Shown one piece after another: positions 1,936 to 32,917 of a stretch of 35,442 nt of DNA (positions within the stretch are counted from its first letter, which is position 1; the number at the start of each line of letters is the position of its first letter). Position numbers and translations under genes: made by a program. The notes below the pieces were generated by a model. The model saw only the letters and a program-made list of their open reading frames with translations. It was not told the DNA's origin and made no database searches. The stretch comes from Gemmataceae bacterium (lineage in GTDB: Bacteria; Planctomycetota; Planctomycetia; Gemmatales; Gemmataceae): positions 1 to 35,442 of the forward strand of contig JANWYO010000239.1 of NCBI GenBank assembly GCA_025055215.1, read 5' to 3'.

Positions 1936-3069
1936 TTACCGCGCCGCTTGCGCCTGTCGTGCCGCGTGGTGAGCCGGACGACGATCGCCAAGTAACGCCT
2001 GCTGTGGCGCACCGGCAGGGTCAGGCGTCTCGTCCTGCCCGGAGGGGCTTCCGACTGGATGCGACGAGGGGGCTTGGGAACGGGCGACATTACGGCGGCC
2101 CGCAGACGGCCGCCGCCTGACGCCGGGGTCGAGGTTCAGGGTGGACCGCACCGCGTAGGCCGTCTTGCCCTGGCTCTCGAAGTACGTCCGCGACAGCAAC
2201 TCGCCTAACAGCCCCATTGAGATCAGCTGCACGCCGACCAGCTCAAGCATGACACTGAGCAACAACAGCGGGTTCCCGGTCATGAACAGCCCATAGCGCG
2301 ACTTCATCCAGATCGTGGCGATCAGGCTGACGACGCCCAACGACATGGCGATCAACCCACCCAGTCCCATGATGTGCATCGGCCGAGTCAGGTAACTATC
2401 GAGGAATTTGATGGTAATCAGGTCGAGGATGACGCGGAAGGTGCGTGTCAGGTTGTACTTGGTCTTGCCCGATCGACGGGGATGGTGCCGCACCGGAATT
2501 TGTGCCAGGTGGCCTCCGGACTGTTGCGCCAGCACGGCCACGAAGCGATGCATTTCACCATAAAGCGGCAACGATTCGGCCAAGTCGCGGCGCATGGCCC
2601 GCAGGGTACAACCCAGGTCGCGGATCGGCACGCCGGTCACTTTGCGGATGAGCCAGTTGGCGATCAGGCTCGGGATTTTGCGGATGAGGAGGTTGTCCTG
2701 GCGCTGGGCCCGGAGGCCGAGGACGGCGTCGTAGCCCTCGTCCAGCTTCGCGAGCAAGCGCGGGATGTCAGCGGGGTCGTTTTGGAGGTCGCCGTCCATT
2801 GTGACGAGGACATCGCCCTTGGACCAGTCGATACCGGCTTGCAAGGCGGCAGTTTGGCCGAAATTCCGCCGCAGCCGCACCACCTTGACCAACGGATCGC
2901 CTTGGGCGAGCTGTTGCAAGACGGCGAACGAGCCGTCGCTGCTGCCATCGTCGACAAAGACAATCTCGTATCTCAGGCCGAGCGGATCGAGATGCTGCCG
3001 GAGTTGTTCATGCAGCGGTCGTAAGTTGTCGCGCTCGTCCTTGATGGGGATCACCACAGACAGGTTCAT
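1936..3069 (-). CDS. GT2 polyprenyl-phosphate glycosyltransferase
   Basis: A 377-residue family-2 glycosyltransferase of the DPM1/ArnC/GtrB type, which moves a sugar from a nucleotide donor to a polyprenyl phosphate on the cytoplasmic membrane face. Visible motifs are VIPIKDE at residues 6-12, VDDGSSDGS at 39-47, the metal-binding DGD at 92-94 and a basic RHHPRRSGKTKY block near 194-205. Two hydrophobic segments follow (about 232-255 and 266-292). Residues beyond about 315 form an Arg/Pro-rich tail that is unusually long for the family. The ATG at 3069 has GAGGTGA 9 nt upstream. Its start overlaps the end of the flippase gene by 62 bp, so the two are probably translated together. The acceptor and sugar are not known. 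Confidence 0.9.
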   Translation of the reverse strand: MNLSVVIPIKDERDNLRPLHEQLRQHLDPLGLRYEIVFVDDGSSDGSFAVLQQLAQGDPLVKVVRLRRNFGQTAALQAGIDWSKGDVLVTMDGDLQNDPADIPRLLAKLDEGYDAVLGLRAQRQDNLLIRKIPSLIANWLIRKVTGVPIRDLGCTLRAMRRDLAESLPLYGEMHRFVAVLAQQSGGHLAQIPVRHHPRRSGKTKYNLTRTFRVILDLITIKFLDSYLTRPMHIMGLGGLIAMSLGVVSLIATIWMKSRYGLFMTGNPLLLLSVMLELVGVQLISMGLLGELLSRTYFESQGKTAYAVRSTLNLDPGVRRRPSAGRRNVARSQAPSSHPVGSPSGQDETPDPAGAPQQALLGDRRPAHHAARQAQAAR

Positions 3070-3976
3070 GGCCAGTAGTCACCTCGGGTCGGGGAAAAGA
3101 ACCAAGCAGGTACACGAGGCCGCCCAAGCCGCCGGCGGCCAGGAAGACGGCGAACCATAACAACGACAGGCAGAGGGTCGTGCCGGTCGGCACGCCCAGA
3201 AACGCCAGGAAGCGCATCATCCCTTCTTCGCGGACGCCGATACCGTTGATACTGATCGGCAAGAGCGTCAGCAGGGAAACCATGGGGACCATGATCGCGT
3301 AGTACGCAGGGGGGACTTTCAGCCCCAGTCCCAGGCCGATGAACCAAACAATGGCGACGTTGGCGGCCTGGACGACGAGCGACAAAGCCGTGGTGATAAG
3401 GAGGAGGCGCGGCTGGCGGCGGAAAGCGCGGCCGGCCGCCGTCAGGCGGAGAGTCCACGGCCCGCGGCCCTTGCCGCGGGCCAGCAATGGCGCGACGGCC
3501 AGTCCCGCCAGGGCACAACTCGCCGTGCCCCATACCGACGCCGGCACCCAGCGGGGAAGCTCCAGCGGACAGAACACTACCGCCGCGCACGCCAGCGCCA
3601 ATAACACCAGCAAGCCGCTGAAGCGGTCAGCGAACACGCTGACGAAGGCGGCCAACCGGCGGCCGCTGCCTCCGTCCAGATACCACGCCCGCAGGACGTC
3701 GCCGCCCACCGAGGTGGGCAACAGCATGTTGAAGTACATGCCGATGAAATAAAAGCTCACAAAGCGAGCCAGCGACTCCTTGAACCCAAGCGGCCGGGCC
3801 AGGAGCTGCCAGCGCACGGCGCTGACCAACTGGGAGACGAGGTAGAGGAGGAAAGCCGCCCACCACCACTGCAACCGCAGCGAGGCAAAAGCCTCACCGA
3901 CCTGAGCCCAGTCGGTTCGCAGGATGAGTCCCGTCACCAGGACGCCGCTCACGGCGATCCGGAACCAGCGATTCAA
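3008..3976 (-). CDS. flippase-like UPF0104 membrane protein
   Basis: About 322 residues with seven or more hydrophobic segments, matching the lysylphosphatidylglycerol-synthase transmembrane / UPF0104 (AglD-like) family. The conserved features include an YFIGMYFNMLLPTSVGGDVLRAW block and a late PISINGIGVREEGMMRF block. Members are thought to help flip or position lipid-linked sugars. I place the start at a TTG at 3976: AAGGAGG lies 8 nt upstream, and the preceding gene's TGA ends 1 nt before it, which fits translational coupling. A more distal TTG at 4027 lies inside the phosphatase gene and has no better ribosome site. Neighbours are a phosphatase-like protein upstream and a GT2 downstream, so a role in envelope polysaccharide or lipid glycosylation is likely but inferred. 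Confidence 0.87.
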   Translation of the reverse strand: MNRWFRIAVSGVLVTGLILRTDWAQVGEAFASLRLQWWWAAFLLYLVSQLVSAVRWQLLARPLGFKESLARFVSFYFIGMYFNMLLPTSVGGDVLRAWYLDGGSGRRLAAFVSVFADRFSGLLVLLALACAAVVFCPLELPRWVPASVWGTASCALAGLAVAPLLARGKGRGPWTLRLTAAGRAFRRQPRLLLITTALSLVVQAANVAIVWFIGLGLGLKVPPAYYAIMVPMVSLLTLLPISINGIGVREEGMMRFLAFLGVPTGTTLCLSLLWFAVFLAAGGLGGLVYLLGSFPRPEVTTGHEPVCGDPHQGRARQLTTAA

Positions 3977-3977
3977 T

Positions 3978-5024
3978 TCAGCCGCCTCCTTGCGACGCTT
4001 GGCTGCCACCCGTTGGCTGGACCTCAAACTCCAGGTGCAGCGGGACCGATCCCATCTGGAAAAAGGTGCCGTGCTGCTCGTCGATCATGTCCACAAACAG
4101 CGAATAGCTTCCTGGGGGTAGCGCCGGCAGGGGAAGGAGCAGGTCGATGCTGCCACCCGGAGGTACGAGGCCGTCGAACAGACCGGCCCGCCGCGCCTTC
4201 ATCCGTTGCCCAGGCCAATTGCCGAAGCAGTAGACGACGTGGACGCCGGCGGTCGATCCCGCTCGGAATTGCCAAGTGCGATTCGAAGTGTTGTGGGAGC
4301 GGACGCGGAAACAGGTCGGCTCGAAGGCGCGAATCGGATTGGGAACATGGACCATTTCCAAATGGCAGCAATACGGCCGATATTCGTGACAGACCCAATG
4401 GCGCAGGCGTTCGGGGGAGTGTTCCGCCTGCTCGGTCATCAGCCACTCCTGATACTCCTTCAGCAGTCGGTCGAGATGGGCGGACCGGCCGATTGGGAGG
4501 TGGCCGTACCGTGGGCCGAGGTGGCGGTGGGCCTGCTCGAGCGTGGCATCGGTCCGCAAAAGAAGGGCCAGGGTGACCGCCAAGCCCGTGCGGTCAGCCC
4601 CGCGTCGGCAGTGGACCAGGATCGGATACTCGCTGCGGTCCAGCACCTCGACCAGGCGTCGCAACTCCGTCATGGAGGGGAACCGGCCGGCACAGAAGTT
4701 TAAGTCTTCCTGGGCGACGTTCAGCCGGTGGGTCGTGCGACATTCCTCCCGATACCAATCGAAGCAGTCGCAGACCCCACGGAGGTTGACCACGGTGCGG
4801 ATGCCGTATTGCCGAATGGCTTCTTCCAGCTGGGGGGCCGTCAGCTGGGCGGAACGATAAATCTTGCCGGCCACGACGGTGTGGAAATTTCGACCTCGAA
4901 GGACATACCGGGCCTCCACGCCAACGGCGACGGTCGCCCCGAAGGCGCTGCCCCAGAGGACCGCCGCCCACCAACACCATCGCGGCGGACGGCGTGGTTG
5001 GCCCCGAGTCTGGTCCGCTTCCAT
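3978..5024 (-). CDS. membrane-anchored dual-specificity phosphatase with C-terminal beta-sandwich
   Basis: A 348-residue protein in three parts. Residues 16-38 are a single membrane anchor. Residues 50-215 are a cysteine phosphatase of the DSP/SIW14-like type: KIYRSAQL at 54-61, VVNLRG at 78-83 and the CX5R loop HCRRGADRTG with nucleophile C139 and R145; D107 could be the general acid. Residues about 235-335 look like an Ig-like beta-sandwich with the pattern N-T-S..TW..., PPGGSI..., LPPGSYSLFVDM, then a final strand pair. Such C-terminal modules are common in carbohydrate-linked proteins. The ATG at 5024 has GGGAGG just upstream; a longer frame to 5228 would run through the tsf terminator, so it is rejected. 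The gene heads the phosphatase-flippase-GT2 operon. The substrate is unknown. Confidence 0.82.
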   Translation of the reverse strand: MEADQTRGQPRRPPRWCWWAAVLWGSAFGATVAVGVEARYVLRGRNFHTVVAGKIYRSAQLTAPQLEEAIRQYGIRTVVNLRGVCDCFDWYREECRTTHRLNVAQEDLNFCAGRFPSMTELRRLVEVLDRSEYPILVHCRRGADRTGLAVTLALLLRTDATLEQAHRHLGPRYGHLPIGRSAHLDRLLKEYQEWLMTEQAEHSPERLRHWVCHEYRPYCCHLEMVHVPNPIRAFEPTCFRVRSHNTSNRTWQFRAGSTAGVHVVYCFGNWPGQRMKARRAGLFDGLVPPGGSIDLLLPLPALPPGSYSLFVDMIDEQHGTFFQMGSVPLHLEFEVQPTGGSQASQGGG

Positions 5025-5180
5025 GCCCCCTCCCGCCTTTTGCCTCCACCAGTGCCTCCCTTCCGCCGACCCAAGCCGCCGACCGGCTCGGGCGGCGGCA
5101 TCATGCCAAAGGGCTCCGCCCTTGACTAGGCCGACCCACCAGAGACCGGACGACTCAACCAGAAATCGGCAGAGGAGGGG

Positions 5181-5224
5181 AAAAAGCAATGCGGCTTCCC
5201 AAACGGCACCGTTTGGGAAGCCGC
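5181..5224 (-). terminator. intrinsic terminator of rpsB-tsf
   Basis: A perfect 15-bp stem (5191-5205 against 5210-5224) closes on the 4-nt loop GCAC. Read on the minus strand it is followed by ATTGC and then five T residues (5185-5181). It begins 34 nt after the tsf stop codon. Confidence 0.88.
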
Positions 5225-5257
5225 GCAAACAGGCGACGAGGAAGGCGACCCGGCAAC

Positions 5258-6094
5258 TCAGCTCAGCTCGCCGACCTTCATGCGGACAAACCGGACCACT
5301 TTCAGCCCCGCGGCCCGGAGCAAGGCGCCGACTGTCTTGGTCTCGTCCTTGACAAACGGCTGCTCAACGAGAACGTTTTCCGCGAACCAGGTCTTCAGCT
5401 TCCCCTCAGCAATTTTCTCGACGATGTTGGCCGGCTTCCCGGTAGCTGCGGCCTGGGCCAGGGCAATGTCTTTCTCTTTGGCGACCACCGCCGGCGGCAC
5501 GTCCTCGGGACGAGCAGCCACCGGGTTCTTGGCGACGATGTGCATGCATACGTCGCGCAGCAGGGTGGGATCGGCCGACGCCCCCTCGACTTGCAGCAGC
5601 ACCCCGGTGGTCTGGTCGTGGTGGACATAACTCCCCAGCAGACCAGTCAGGCGGACAAACCGTTGCGGTTTCATGTTCTCCCGCACCAGGCCGACGACTT
5701 CGCTGATTCGTTCCGCCACGGTTTGGGCGGGGTTGTCCACAAACGGTTGCTTCAGGAGGTCGTCAACGTCGGCCGGCGCCTTCAGGGCGATGTGCCGCGC
5801 CAGGTCGTTCGCCAGCTGGGCGAAGAGTTCATTCTTCGCCGCCGGTGTCGTCTCGCAGCGCATCTCCAGGATCGCCCCCACCTGTTGCGCCGGGTCGATG
5901 AAGACGGCGATCCGGCCCTCGGCCGTCTCGCGATGGACGACCTTGTCCACGGCATCTTTGTTCTGTTTTCGGAGGATTTCGACCGCCTTTTCCATGTCGC
6001 CGTTCGCTTCGATCAAGGCGGCCTTGCACTTCATCATCTGCATGCCGGTGCGTTTGCGGAGTTGGTCAACCGCCGCAGCGGAAATGGTAGTCAT
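5258..6094 (-). CDS. tsf: translation elongation factor Ts
   Basis: A 278-residue EF-Ts, the guanine-nucleotide exchange factor that recycles EF-Tu during translation in the cytoplasm. The N-terminal UBA-like helix region reads LRKRTGMQMMKCKAAL (about 12-27) followed by the expected NGDMEKAVEILRK, then the exchange motif region and the core (GRIAVFIDPA, EMRCETTPAAKN, FAQLANDLARHIA). The usual TGAGM is TGMQM here. C-terminal features (KPANIVEKIAEGKLKTWF, VLVEQPFVKD) are those of the family. It follows rpsB by 57 bp, the classic order, and ends in a clear intrinsic terminator. AAGG about 7 nt before the ATG is the likely ribosome site. Confidence 0.97.
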   Translation of the reverse strand: MTTISAAAVDQLRKRTGMQMMKCKAALIEANGDMEKAVEILRKQNKDAVDKVVHRETAEGRIAVFIDPAQQVGAILEMRCETTPAAKNELFAQLANDLARHIALKAPADVDDLLKQPFVDNPAQTVAERISEVVGLVRENMKPQRFVRLTGLLGSYVHHDQTTGVLLQVEGASADPTLLRDVCMHIVAKNPVAARPEDVPPAVVAKEKDIALAQAAATGKPANIVEKIAEGKLKTWFAENVLVEQPFVKDETKTVGALLRAAGLKVVRFVRMKVGELS

Positions 6095-6151: not shown

Positions 6152-7015
6152 TCACTGACCGACGGCGGAGACGGGCCGGATCGTCGGCGCCGGCACTGGC
6201 CGGGGCCGGGGCCCCGTTGGCGCCGCCTCAACGGGCAACGCCGCTTTCCCTTCCATCACCGCATCGGTCAGCTTGGACAAAATCAGCTCAATCGAGCGAA
6301 TGCTGTCGTCGTTGCCGGGGATCGGCAAATCGACCATGTCCGGATCGCTATCTGTGTCGATGAGGGCGACCGTCGTCACCCCCATCCGTTGCGCTTCCTT
6401 TACCGCGATGTGTTCCCGCTTGGGGTCGATGACCACCAAGGCGTCGGGCAACAAGTTCATCTGCCGGATGCCTTGAAGGTTGCGGGAAATCTTGGTCAGC
6501 TCGCGACTTAACGCGGCCACCATTTTCTTGCTGTATTGCCGGATCGGGGCGGTCTCCGGGGCCCGGGCGAGGTCGAATTTGCCCGCCTCGTTCCGCATGT
6601 TCCTCATGTAGGCAACCATGTCATAGTTGGCAGGGTTTTCGCCCTCGGGGAGCCACATCGCCTCCAATTCCTGGAGTCGCCGCAGCCGATCGCGGATAGT
6701 GCGGTAGTTCGTCAAGGTGCCGCCCAGCCACCGTTCGCTGACATACGGCATGCCGCACCGCGCCGCCTCCCGCTCGATCGCTTCCTTGGCCTGTCGTTTC
6801 GTGCCGACAAACAGCACCAAGCTCCCCTTGCTCGCCAGCTGCGACAGGTACCGATACGCCCGCAGGAGTCCGCGAACCGTCTCACGCAGGTCGATGATGT
6901 GAATCAGGTTCCGCTTCCCATAAATGAACGGACGCATCTTCGGGTTCCATCGGCTCGCCCGATGCCCGTAATGCACCCCCGCTTCGATCAAATCCTGGAC
7001 CTGCACGATGGCCAC
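6152..7015 (-). CDS. rpsB: 30S ribosomal protein S2
   Basis: A 287-residue S2 protein, part of the small ribosomal subunit. Signature blocks are [25 protein letters not shown], the NYRTI segment, RWLGGTLTN and [20 protein letters not shown] Pro-rich C-terminal tail (from about residue 262) extends past the usual fold. The start is taken as GTG at 7015, because AGGAGG lies 7 nt upstream and the protein then begins directly with the family N-terminus. The frame stays open to 7066 but the extra 17 residues look unrelated to S2. It is the first gene of the rpsB-tsf operon and is served by a good promoter at 7111-7139. Confidence 0.97.
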
Positions 7016-7110
7016 GCACGGCCCTCCTGCCCCTCGGCGTCTAAGGACTTTGGGACTTCGACACACCGACCCGCGGCCCCTTGCCAGGGCCTCTTGGCGT
7101 GAAGACCGTT

Positions 7111-29373: not shown

Positions 29374-30384
29374 ATGCGTCTGTCGTGGCACCGCTGGTGG
29401 CCGGTCCTCAAGTCTCTCCTGGCCTTGGCCATCGTGCTGGGGGTGGGCTGGCATTTCGTGCGCGTCCTCGACGCCGCCAGCGCCATCGACGAGGCAGCCG
29501 GGACGTCGCGCATCGAGATCATTGGCCGCTGGCTGGCCGAGGCCCGGTCGAGCTGGCTGATGCTCTCCGCGGTGTTGTACCTGTCGGCCCTGGGGATGTT
29601 CGGCTCGTTCTGGGTGCTGTTGCTACGCTGGCTCGGTCAACGCCCTTCGCTGACAACGGCGGGGAGAGCGTATTACATCGGCCATCTGGGGAAATACGTC
29701 CCGGGCAAAGCGTGGGCCTTGATCCTGCGGACCGGCTGGGTGGCCGGTGACGGGGTGCGCCTCGGCGTGGCGGCGATGACAGCCACTTACGAAACGCTCA
29801 CGACCATGGCCGCCGGGGCCTTATTGGCCGGAATCACCTTCGCCTTGCTGCCACCGTCCCACGACGGGGCCGTGTGGCGCGCCTTCGGGCTGCTGGCCCT
29901 GGCTGGGGCCCCCATCCTCCCCGCGGTCTTCAACCGTCTGGTGCGTTGGGCGACGGCCCCCTTCGTCGATCCCGCCCTCCCCAGCTTGCCCCCACTGGGG
30001 ACCAGGACACTCGTGATTGGCTTGGCAATCGCCAGCATCGGATGGTGCCTGATGGGTACGGCGCTATGGACGGCCGTCCAGGGAATGCGGCCGGAAGTCC
30101 TTCCCTGGTCGTGGGGTGACTGGCTCCATTGCACGGCGGCGATGTCGTTCGCCTACGTCGCTGGATTTCTTACCCTGCCGGCCCCAGGCGGCCTGGGCGT
30201 GCGGGAGTTGTTGCTTCAGGAATCGCTCGCCTCGGAGTTGGGGCCCCGGGCCGTCGCCCTGGTCTTGCTGGTGCGTTTGCTGTGGACGGCCGCCGAGTTG
30301 CTGATGGCGGCGGCCGTCTGGTGCCTGCCACAGCGCCGGCGTTCCTTGGCCGGCGGCTTGACGCCCTCAATCTCGCAACCATGA
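29374..30384 (+). CDS. flippase-like UPF0104 membrane protein, second copy
   Basis: A 336-residue polytopic protein of the lysylphosphatidylglycerol-synthase transmembrane/UPF0104 family: a first membrane span (about 12-30), AYYIGHLGKYVPGKAWALILR, and a late LTLPAPGGLGVRELLLQESL that parallels the PISINGIGVREE block of the copy at 3008-3976. It is thought to act on lipid-linked sugars at the inner membrane. Its TGA overlaps the ATG of the next gene (ATGA), so it is coupled to a GT2, just as in the other locus. The ATG at 29374 is used; no ribosome site is visible and a leaderless start is likely. The two copies differ strongly in sequence, so any duplication is old. Confidence 0.87.
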   Translation: MRLSWHRWWPVLKSLLALAIVLGVGWHFVRVLDAASAIDEAAGTSRIEIIGRWLAEARSSWLMLSAVLYLSALGMFGSFWVLLLRWLGQRPSLTTAGRAYYIGHLGKYVPGKAWALILRTGWVAGDGVRLGVAAMTATYETLTTMAAGALLAGITFALLPPSHDGAVWRAFGLLALAGAPILPAVFNRLVRWATAPFVDPALPSLPPLGTRTLVIGLAIASIGWCLMGTALWTAVQGMRPEVLPWSWGDWLHCTAAMSFAYVAGFLTLPAPGGLGVRELLLQESLASELGPRAVALVLLVRLLWTAAELLMAAAVWCLPQRRRSLAGGLTPSISQP

Positions 30385-31421
30385 TCTCGCTCGTCATCCC
30401 TGTTTACAACGAACGCGACAGCCTCGCCGAGCTGCATGCGGAAATCGCCGAGACTGCCCAGCAACACGGCTTGACCCTCGAAGTGGTCTTCGTTGACGAC
30501 GGCAGCACCGACGGCTCCTGGGACGTCATCCGCCGATTAGCCGGGGAACATCCTTGGGTCCGCGGCATCCGCCTCCGCCGTAACTTCGGCAAAGCGGCCG
30601 CGCTCTCGGCCGGCTTCCGCGCCGTCCGCGGTGACGTGGTCCTGACCCTGGACGCCGACCTGCAAGATGACCCCAAGGAAATCGTCCGCTTCCTCGAAGC
30701 TCTCCAGTCCGGCCTCGATGTCGTCAGTGGCTGGAAGAAAAAACGCTACGACCCCTGGCACAAGGTTTGGCCGAGCCGAATCTTCAACCTCATGGTCAGC
30801 GCCCTTACCGGCGTCCGCCTCCACGACCACAACTGCGGCATGAAGTGCTACCGCACCCAGATTTTCCAGGAAATCCGGCTCTACGGCGAATTGCACCGCT
30901 TCATCCCCGTGCTGGCCCACGCCCGTGGCTACCGCGTCGGCGAGATCGTCGTCCGCCACCGACCGCGGAAATTCGGCCACTCGAAGTACGGCGTCCGCCG
31001 CTTCATCAAGGGTTTTCTCGATCTCTTGACGGTAAAGTTTCTGACCGGCTTCGGCCAACGACCGCAACACCTGCTGGGAAGCATCGGCCTGATCAGCTTT
31101 CTCGTCGGCAACCTGGTGATGATTTACCTGGCGGGAACCTGGGTCTTGCGGCTGTGGTATCCCGAGGCGTTCCGACCCTTGCACGAGCGACCAGCCCTGG
31201 TGTACGCCGTGGCGGCGTTGTTGCTCGGCGCGCAGATGATGTCCATCGGCTTCCTGGCGGAACTGATCACCGCATACCAGGGACGGGACGAAGACAGCTA
31301 CAGCATCGCCGAAGAAACCCCACGGATGGGGACGGCCCCGCAGGATCACGCGAGTGCGACGACGTCGGGAGACGGCGCCTCGGCGGGAGACGGCGCCTGG
31401 GCGGAGGTGACCAACCCATGA
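30381..31421 (+). CDS. GT2 polyprenyl-phosphate glycosyltransferase, second copy
   Basis: A 346-residue family-2 glycosyltransferase of the DPM1/ArnC/GtrB type. Motifs: VIPVYNERD (5-13), VDDGSTDGS (38-46), LRRNFGKAAALSAG, the DAD metal motif at 91-93 within LTLDADLQDDP, and the basic HRPRKFGHSKYG segment near 193-204. Two membrane spans near 230-255 and 265-295 follow, then a hydrophilic tail. It begins at the ATGA overlap with the flippase gene and ends in another ATGA overlap with the following membrane-protein gene. It shares motif order and membrane layout with the GT2 at 1936-3069. Confidence 0.92.
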   Translation: MISLVIPVYNERDSLAELHAEIAETAQQHGLTLEVVFVDDGSTDGSWDVIRRLAGEHPWVRGIRLRRNFGKAAALSAGFRAVRGDVVLTLDADLQDDPKEIVRFLEALQSGLDVVSGWKKKRYDPWHKVWPSRIFNLMVSALTGVRLHDHNCGMKCYRTQIFQEIRLYGELHRFIPVLAHARGYRVGEIVVRHRPRKFGHSKYGVRRFIKGFLDLLTVKFLTGFGQRPQHLLGSIGLISFLVGNLVMIYLAGTWVLRLWYPEAFRPLHERPALVYAVAALLLGAQMMSIGFLAELITAYQGRDEDSYSIAEETPRMGTAPQDHASATTSGDGASAGDGAWAEVTNP

Positions 31422-32917
31422 GCGAATTCGGCGACGGTGCCCCGCAGCGGTGGCGGGTCTACACGCTCCTGATCGTCGTGGTGGCCGGCATGGTCACGGG
31501 CCGCATCTTCAACACCCAGCGCGTCTACGAACCCGAACTGGCCCGCGACCCCAACGACCCCGCCGATTGGCGGAGCGCCTGGCCAAGCACTCGCCCCACG
31601 CCGATGCCGACGTTCGGCTCCAATGACCGCTCGCGGTGGGCGACCATCCGGGCCTTGGTCGATCATGGGACCTATGTGATCGGCCGCCGCGACCCCGCCG
31701 CCGCCAACGCTCAGAACCCCTACGGCGACAGCGGCATCGTCTTTGAGTCAGGGTGGGAGACCGTTGACAAGGTCCTCCATCCCGAGCGGCAGGAATTCTA
31801 TTCCAGCAAACCGCCGTTATTGCCGACGCTGGTAGCCGGTGAGTACGCCCTGCTGAAACACCTCTGCGGCTGGTCCATCACCGAGTATCCCCAGCGAGTG
31901 GTTCGCGTCATCCTCCTGACGGTCAACCTGATACCGTTTGTGCTGTATCTGGTACTGCTGGCCCGTCTGGTGGAGCGCTACTCAGTCACCGATTGGGGGC
32001 GGCTGTACGTCATGGGCGTGGCGTGCTTCGGCACCTTCCTGACCACCTTCGCCGTGACACTTAACAACCACACGGTGGCGGCCCATTGTGCCTTGTTCGC
32101 CCTCTACCTGGCCCTGCGCATCTGGAACGATGGTGAGCGCTCGCCGGCTCTCTTCCTGGGGGCGGGCTTTCTCACGGCGTTGACAGCAGCGGTCGAGCTG
32201 CCGGCGCTGGCCTTCGCGGCGGCGTTAACGGCGGCGCTGCTGTGGCGAAGCCCCCGCCCAACACTCTGCTATTTCCTGCCAGCCGCCCTGGTGCCGGCCG
32301 CGGCCTTTTTCCTCACCAACTACCTCGCCTTAGGCCGGTGGACGCCGGCTTACGGCGAATTCGGCGGCCCGTGGTACGAATATCCCGGCAGCCACTGGCT
32401 CAAGGCACGCGACGGCACGCCGCACGGCATCGACTGGGCCGGCGAGCGCGAATCCCGGGCCGCGTACGTGTTGCACTTCCTCGTCGGTCATCATGGCCTC
32501 CTGTCGCTGACCCCCGTCAATGTCCTGGCTTTGGTCGGCATGGTGTGGGCTAGCCACCGCGCGCTCCGCCAATGGCTGAGGGTGCGGTCGGCCAACGGGC
32601 CGGCCATCGGCCCGTTGGCCCCTTTGGGCGTCTTGACGCTCGTCCTCACCGTGGTGGTCACCGGCTTTTACCTGGTCCGCACCAGCAATTACGGCGGCAA
32701 CACCAGCGGCCCGCGCTGGCTTTTCTGGCTGACGCCGTTCTGGCTCCTGACCCTGCTTCCCGTGGCCGACTGGCTGGCTACGCGCCGCTGGGGACGGGGC
32801 CTGGGCCACGCCCTCCTCCTGATCTCGGTCGTCTCCGTCAGCTACCCGGCGTGGAACCCCTGGCGCCAGCCGTGGTTGTACCAATGGATGGAAATCATCG
32901 GCTGGATTCAGTACTGA
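31418..32917 (+). CDS. polytopic membrane protein, possibly GT-C type
   Basis: A 499-residue protein with one span near residues 16-30, a long hydrophilic loop to about 150, then roughly ten more spans. This layout recalls GT-C glycosyltransferases of the ArnT/PMT kind, which use the polyprenyl-phosphate sugars made by GT2 enzymes, but I see no clear catalytic motif and do not assign a family. It is translationally coupled to the GT2 gene (ATGA overlap) with an excellent GGAGGTGA 7 nt before the ATG. The open frame runs far upstream on the other reading frame of the GT2 gene, but those residues are not part of this protein. An internal perfect 13-bp inverted repeat lies at 32590-32602/32608-32620. 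Confidence 0.8.
   Translation: MSEFGDGAPQRWRVYTLLIVVVAGMVTGRIFNTQRVYEPELARDPNDPADWRSAWPSTRPTPMPTFGSNDRSRWATIRALVDHGTYVIGRRDPAAANAQNPYGDSGIVFESGWETVDKVLHPERQEFYSSKPPLLPTLVAGEYALLKHLCGWSITEYPQRVVRVILLTVNLIPFVLYLVLLARLVERYSVTDWGRLYVMGVACFGTFLTTFAVTLNNHTVAAHCALFALYLALRIWNDGERSPALFLGAGFLTALTAAVELPALAFAAALTAALLWRSPRPTLCYFLPAALVPAAAFFLTNYLALGRWTPAYGEFGGPWYEYPGSHWLKARDGTPHGIDWAGERESRAAYVLHFLVGHHGLLSLTPVNVLALVGMVWASHRALRQWLRVRSANGPAIGPLAPLGVLTLVLTVVVTGFYLVRTSNYGGNTSGPRWLFWLTPFWLLTLLPVADWLATRRWGRGLGHALLLISVVSVSYPAWNPWRQPWLYQWMEIIGWIQY

Follow-up and report, generated by a model that had tools for sequence, protein, structure and literature searches.

Rhizobia offer the closest described parallel to the locus reported here. 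Of the enzymes in question, RgtE resembles ArnC and the Rgt transferases are of the GT-C type. According to two sources, LpxE and LpxF together with RgtE, RgtD and RgtF exchange a phosphate for a sugar, and the lipid A of Aquifex implies the same exchange (PMC7663294, PMC6581854). In the plan described there a phosphatase is combined with a GT2 that loads sugar onto polyprenyl phosphate and with transferases that place the sugar where the phosphate was; the arrangement proposed below is alike. The phosphatases themselves differ, since LpxE and LpxF belong to the PAP2 type whereas the enzyme studied here is a cysteine phosphatase of the CX5R kind carrying a beta-sandwich. Because its catalytic domain has the PTP fold and not that of PAP2, it is not an LpxE or LpxF, although it may act like one.

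Two further comparisons concern the phosphatase. TpbA of Pseudomonas aeruginosa, for which we know of no glycosyltransferase partner, shares with it a periplasmic dual-specificity-type fold (the location being predicted in our case) and an HCxxGxxR loop. Unlike the present enzyme TpbA lacks a C-terminal sandwich, and it acts on TpbB, a c-di-GMP enzyme. SEX4 and PTEN, which have non-protein substrates, also consist of a cysteine phosphatase followed by a beta-sandwich. Whole-chain superposition on them was poor (rmsd about 11-12), so the likeness is one of plan and does not imply homology. A search of the open-licence literature found no description of the combination of phosphatase, flippase and GT2.

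Organisation of the locus

The window, i.e. the whole stretch of 35,442 nucleotides that was analysed, contained the following features:

1936-3069, minus strand: GT2 glycosyltransferase, ArnC/GtrB-like (polyprenyl-phosphate glycosyltransferase; Pfam, NCBIfam, alignment with solved ArnC)
3008-3976, minus strand: flippase-like protein of the LPG_synthase_TM / TIGR00374 type, TTG start (Pfam and NCBIfam)
3978-5024, minus strand: CX5R phosphatase of 348 amino acids with predicted membrane anchor and C-terminal Ig-like sandwich (reading frame, Pfam, AlphaFold2, alignment)
4005-4379, minus strand: sandwich domain of the phosphatase (separate structure prediction, pLDDT 93.8)
5191-5224, minus strand: terminator-like hairpin of 15 bp with T-run, 3' of tsf (hairpin scan)
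5258-6094, minus strand: tsf (named by eye from the translation)
6152-7066, minus strand: rpsB (named by eye from the translation)

In the direction of transcription the order is thus rpsB, tsf, hairpin with T-run, phosphatase, flippase-like gene and GT2. The phosphatase frame runs from an ATG at 5024, preceded by GGAGGGGG, to a TGA ending at 3978. As claimed in the earlier note, the flippase-like gene begins 1 nt past this stop codon, with a TTG at 3976 that is preceded by AAGGAGG, and is followed by the GT2. The start of the GT2 gene (3069) overlaps the end of the flippase-like gene (3008) by 62 nt, and an identical overlap was present in 9 of 19 loci possessing all three genes.

Membership of the phosphatase in an rpsB-tsf operon was considered and is unlikely. 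A strong hairpin with a T-run separates the phosphatase unit from rpsB-tsf, and tsf adjoins the phosphatase gene in some loci only. The hairpin scan as a whole was not above shuffled sequences (6 hairpins found against a mean of 5.2).

Conservation of the phosphatase-GT2 pair in Gemmataceae

Among 95 Gemmataceae genomes the phosphatase was found in 84, the GT2 in 83 and both in 81. In 76 of these 81 the two genes shared a contig and strand and lay together; the remaining five had them at contig ends. Five genomes possessed only one of the genes: in G002, G007 and G031 it lay at a contig end, whereas G008 and G067 were real exceptions with unlinked enzymes. Both genes were missing from nine genomes, of which four are 90% complete or more. 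Phosphatase-lacking genomes of at least 90% completeness were G019, G033, G046 and G047, in which other phosphatase-like matches were present. For these counts six Gemmataceae matches of 129-152 bits without a sandwich were taken as a short paralog, hence G042 was scored as lacking the unit; GT2 matches of up to 251 bits were likewise taken as paralogs, except for a 251-bit fragment in G079 that stems from its own GT2. Relatedness among the genomes means that the counts are not independent, and gene calls in the neighbour analyses were mechanical.

The flippase-like gene was present in only 35 of the 76 intact loci and absent from 41. The spacing between the phosphatase and GT2 matches was -9 to 283 bp in the 41 genomes without it and 894 to 1372 bp in the 35 with it. 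When neighbours were counted in 44 loci (including L113, a duplicate of L050), the recurrent genes were the phosphatase (44), the GT2 (44) and the flippase-like gene (21), the next reaching at most 6 if antisense shadow frames are left aside. In a midpoint-rooted tree of phosphatase and GT2 with 40 tips, absence of the flippase corresponded to a single clade of 17 and a pair from one genus. The stable partner of the phosphatase is the GT2, and the flippase is optional. The pair persists whether or not a gene intervenes, and no other finding points as strongly to joint action of phosphatase and GT2.

The earlier note had asked whether the order of the three genes is conserved across the family. 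The order is not peculiar to one genome, but it is the phosphatase-GT2 pair that is kept family-wide, and the flippase, given there as a main part of the system, is one that many loci lack.

The phosphatase and its sandwich domain

The phosphatase loop reads H138-C-R-R-G-A-D-R145-T-G, with C139 as the cysteine of the CX5R motif. The motif HC..G.DR[TS] was intact in all 34 orthologs aligned (34 of the 41 proteins available). H138, C139, G142, D144, R145 and T146 were invariant, as were, among others, N245, W251, G281, F321 and G325 of the sandwich, which indicates that both domains are under constraint. By position only, E106 (32/34) and D107 (33/34) are candidates for the general acid. Full-length relatives at 37-50% identity occur in most Gemmataceae genomes, so that the locus is more than a chance arrangement.

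The AlphaFold2 model (mean pLDDT 91) comprised a helix (residues 18-43), a phosphatase fold (about 44-215) and a beta-sandwich (about 218-337), bearing out the membrane anchor and Ig-like C-terminal domain proposed in the earlier note. The HCX5R loop in a PTP fold places the enzyme in the cysteine-dependent PTP/DSP superfamily, in keeping with the CX5R phosphatase (C139, R145) named there. Pfam gave a match to Y_phosphatase3 above the cut-off (4.7e-11) and to further generic cysteine-phosphatase families, and no NCBIfam model matched; none of these hits, in other words, is to a family whose role is established and lies elsewhere. The best fold matches of the catalytic domain were SsoPTP (Z 15.8), TpbA (15.5), plant PFA-DSP (15.4), Siw14 (15.2) and PTPMT1 (14.3), most of them tied; RNA triphosphatases were also among the matches. 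In 32 of the 34 orthologs the charge before the helix was more positive than after it, a positive-inside bias that predicts an outward catalytic domain. The phosphatase therefore probably sits outside the cytoplasm, anchored in the membrane by one N-terminal helix.

Modelled alone, the sandwich was Ig-like. Its fold matches were nearly tied, namely the C-terminal domain of transglutaminase (Z 11.1), the FW domain of ILRUN (Z 10.6, 103 residues aligned, rmsd 2.4), CARDB (10.3) and the sugar-binding domain of Aquifex Wzt (Z 9.6, 108 residues, rmsd 2.6), and with Z values of 9.6-11.1 the label "carbohydrate-binding" is a guess. Binding of a glycan by the modelled domain is nevertheless plausible. 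Separate family searches, as suggested in the earlier note, succeeded for the phosphatase domain only: the sandwich copy of this window had no Pfam match and no convincing sequence match in the PDB. Wzt_C, N_BRCA1_IG and Transglut_C each matched a single one of 38 sandwich members (E 0.0065-0.039). A similar sandwich ends an acidobacterial frame (L223:1468-2751, minus strand) that reads by eye as a methyltransferase and adjoins a frame reading as membrane GT-C-like. The domain thus appears to move among proteins with a possible tie to glycans.

The glycosyltransferase and the flippase-like protein

The GT2 (PF00535, 1.4e-32) is like the polyprenyl-phosphate glycosyltransferases ArnC, GtrB and PgfS. 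Its residues 3-311 align with solved ArnC (1.9e-55) and residues 2-310 with sll0501/GtrB (4.5e-40), and this full-length match to a solved member assigns it, by sequence, to the polyprenyl-phosphate GT2 fold group. Unlike ArnC it falls far short of the NCBIfam ArnC equivalog cut-off (202.3 against 529 bits), and with scores so far below the equivalog cut-offs its sugar is not predictable. The flippase-like protein matched PF03706 (1.9e-39) and passed the curated cut-offs of LPG_synthase_TM (136.4 vs 33.4 bits) and TIGR00374 (65.4 vs 43.2 bits), remaining below that of the MprF equivalog (19.6 vs 600 bits).

The window contains a second module (29374-32917, plus strand) that consists of a flippase-like frame with a weak PF03706 match, a frame for an ArnC-like GT2, and a long membrane-type frame without a Pfam match. 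This GT2 is 41% identical to the first and starts inside the stop codon of the flippase-like frame. The module contains no phosphatase.

Relatives and GT-C neighbours

Short phosphatase paralogs were located directly downstream of a PMT_2-type GT-C gene in all five Gemmataceae loci in which this could be assessed (L193-L197); the sixth, in G042, was cut by a contig end. Another planctomycete (L091) paired a phosphatase relative with a PMT_2 gene. In one acidobacterium (L122/L204) a sandwich-bearing relative lies 16 nt before a PMT_2 gene and in a second (L205) it adjoins one; we take the Thermoanaerobaculia to be acidobacteria. A third acidobacterial genome with a full-length relative (L206) had no PMT_2 neighbour. 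In a member of the Desulfobacterales (L117) a relative with a different C-terminal extension is located 7 nt before a PMT_2 gene.

Among the genes flanking the Gemmataceae pair, counted two to each side, PMT_2 was also the commonest family, with 5 of 141 neighbours in 39 loci (141 of 145 neighbours used). The Poisson chance of this is 2.8e-5 for 12 PMT_2 genes in the genome and an assumed 5000 genes, a figure that ignores relatedness; 8-24 PMT_2 matches were counted per genome in the 15 Gemmataceae examined. In 56 loci outside Gemmataceae PMT_2 accounted for 3 of 106 neighbours (106 of 111 used), most loci had no GT-C neighbour, and the GT2 was not adjacent to the phosphatase. Other planctomycetes showed an epimerase gene (10 of the 106) and recA (8) recurring near the relatives. 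Among the neighbours of the rhizobial short forms there was no recurrent glycosyltransferase. In ten rhizobial loci a gene for a VTT-domain protein (DedA-like, below the Pfam cut-off) is located just upstream of the short phosphatase (e.g. L133, near 5114-5698). L177 (5385-7035, minus strand) carries tandem phosphatases of this family, one with and one without a sandwich, next to a gene resembling by eye an NAD-dependent epimerase. A PHROGs search found nothing.

Proposed function and alternatives

The linkage described above makes it probable that the phosphatase and its GT2 partner belong to a single polyprenyl-phosphate-sugar route. As the best overall explanation we propose an outward phosphatase in polyprenyl-phosphate-sugar glycosylation that takes a phosphate off the acceptor before a sugar is added, with a probability of roughly 0.5. 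The ArnC-like GT2 would make the polyprenyl-phosphate-sugar at the inner face of the membrane, from where it would be moved outward by the PF03706 protein or, in genomes that have lost this gene, by another flippase. The phosphatase, a bitopic, cysteine-dependent enzyme whose catalytic domain and sandwich are both predicted to lie on the outer face of the cytoplasmic membrane, would then remove a phosphomonoester from an acceptor lipid or glycan, e.g. lipid A, guided by the sandwich. Finally an ArnT-like GT-C would put the sugar on the acceptor.

It might be asked why the phosphatase should act on the acceptor. CX5R enzymes cut phosphomonoesters. The phosphate of a polyprenyl-phosphate sugar is in diester linkage, and once the sugar has been transferred polyprenyl phosphate is left; the carrier cycle itself therefore needs no phosphatase. 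The simplest coupling is at the acceptor, where the phosphate would come off and the sugar go on; taken by itself, this removal of phosphate from the acceptor is a tentative proposal. LpxK was present in 92 of 95 Gemmataceae genomes, hence these cells should make a phosphorylated precursor of lipid A. PAP2 was found in 12 of 18 genomes, and six of the 18 gave no match, four of these possessing the pair (G012, G027, G071, G074). Taken together these findings make lipid A a fair candidate for the acceptor; a different lipid, some glycan or a protein is also allowed. Against the proposed route stand the unlinked enzymes of G008 and G067 and, outside Gemmataceae, the position of the GT2 away from the phosphatase and the rarity of GT-C neighbours. 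The PAP2 enzymes of the 12 genomes could serve lipid A, and TpbA, to which sequence and fold point as the nearest periplasmic relative, is reported to be a phosphatase of proteins.

That last point leads to the possibility that the enzyme is a TpbA-like regulator, removing phosphate from tyrosine or serine of an extracytoplasmic protein and so controlling the glycosylation machinery. Such a role fits fold and location: TpbA gave 148 aligned residues at rmsd 3.1 with a profile match of 1.2e-6, and it is described as a periplasmic enzyme whose targets are periplasmic tyrosines of TpbB (PMC4409338). However, with TpbA, SsoPTP, PFA-DSP and Siw14 tied at Z 15.2-15.8 the fold gives no preference to TpbA, and the locus has no recurrent kinase or GGDEF gene, protein kinase domains accounting for 2 of 141 neighbours. 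We regard this role as unlikely. The preference of the earlier note for a lipid-linked-sugar or phospho-lipid substrate over protein phosphotyrosine gains from the linkage to polyprenyl-phosphate-sugar enzymes and from the predicted outward topology; it is weakened by a phosphotyrosine phosphatase, TpbA, being among the nearest characterised relatives.

Action on a phospholipid precursor or on the carrier itself was considered as well. Rhodopirellula baltica is said, by Teh et al. in 2013, to possess a mammalian-type PGP phosphatase, and PgpA (PF04608) was absent from all 95 Gemmataceae genomes as against its presence in 4 of 14 controls, which keeps alive the idea of a PTPMT1-type phosphatidylglycerophosphate phosphatase supplying phospholipid, its linkage with the GT2 being due to chance or to co-regulation. 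The fold of PTPMT1 matched over 148 residues (rmsd 3.0), but no sequence match was obtained at E 0.1 (phmmer) or 0.01 (profile search), and the same genome holds three other cysteine-phosphatase candidates. Since the gene is missing from four genomes at least 90% complete, albeit ones with other phosphatase-like matches, and the linkage to a glycosyltransferase would be left unexplained, this role is decidedly improbable. Even less credit can be given to an undecaprenyl-pyrophosphate phosphatase that recycles the carrier in place of UppP (BacA). BacA was missing from 37 of 95 genomes, including the source of the window, and RNA triphosphatases and Siw14, which share the fold, cut phosphoanhydrides. 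Replacement does not hold, since BacA is retained by 52 of the 86 genomes that possess the phosphatase or the GT2; moreover DPM/ArnC-type chemistry gives Und-P rather than Und-PP. The absence of BacA instead followed the presence of the flippase (28/40 vs 9/55, Fisher p 1.5e-7), a tie confounded by clade: by genus p was 0.05 and flippase absence amounts to one clade and one genus, so that it probably reflects shared ancestry.

Beyond the proposed removal of phosphate ahead of sugar addition, a broader reading is rather doubtful. It would make these proteins a previously undescribed class of outward cysteine phosphatases that use a sugar-binding sandwich and strip phosphate from lipid A, another lipid or a glycan, as dedicated partners of polyprenyl-phosphate-sugar transfer, both in planctomycetes and, as a separate case, in acidobacteria and Desulfobacterales. 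They would do the job of LpxE and LpxF with an unrelated fold.

Significance

The envelopes of planctomycetes are unusual and poorly understood, and lipid A genes are described as essential in one planctomycete (PMC10632474). The near-constant adjacency of phosphatase and GT2 suggests an undescribed phosphate-removing step in the decoration of the Gemmataceae envelope, and the conserved pair provides a concrete handle on envelope glycosylation. If the substrate is a lipid or a glycan, the roles of the PTP fold in bacteria would widen beyond protein phosphate, and the enzyme would account for those genomes which seemingly lack lipid phosphatases of the usual types.
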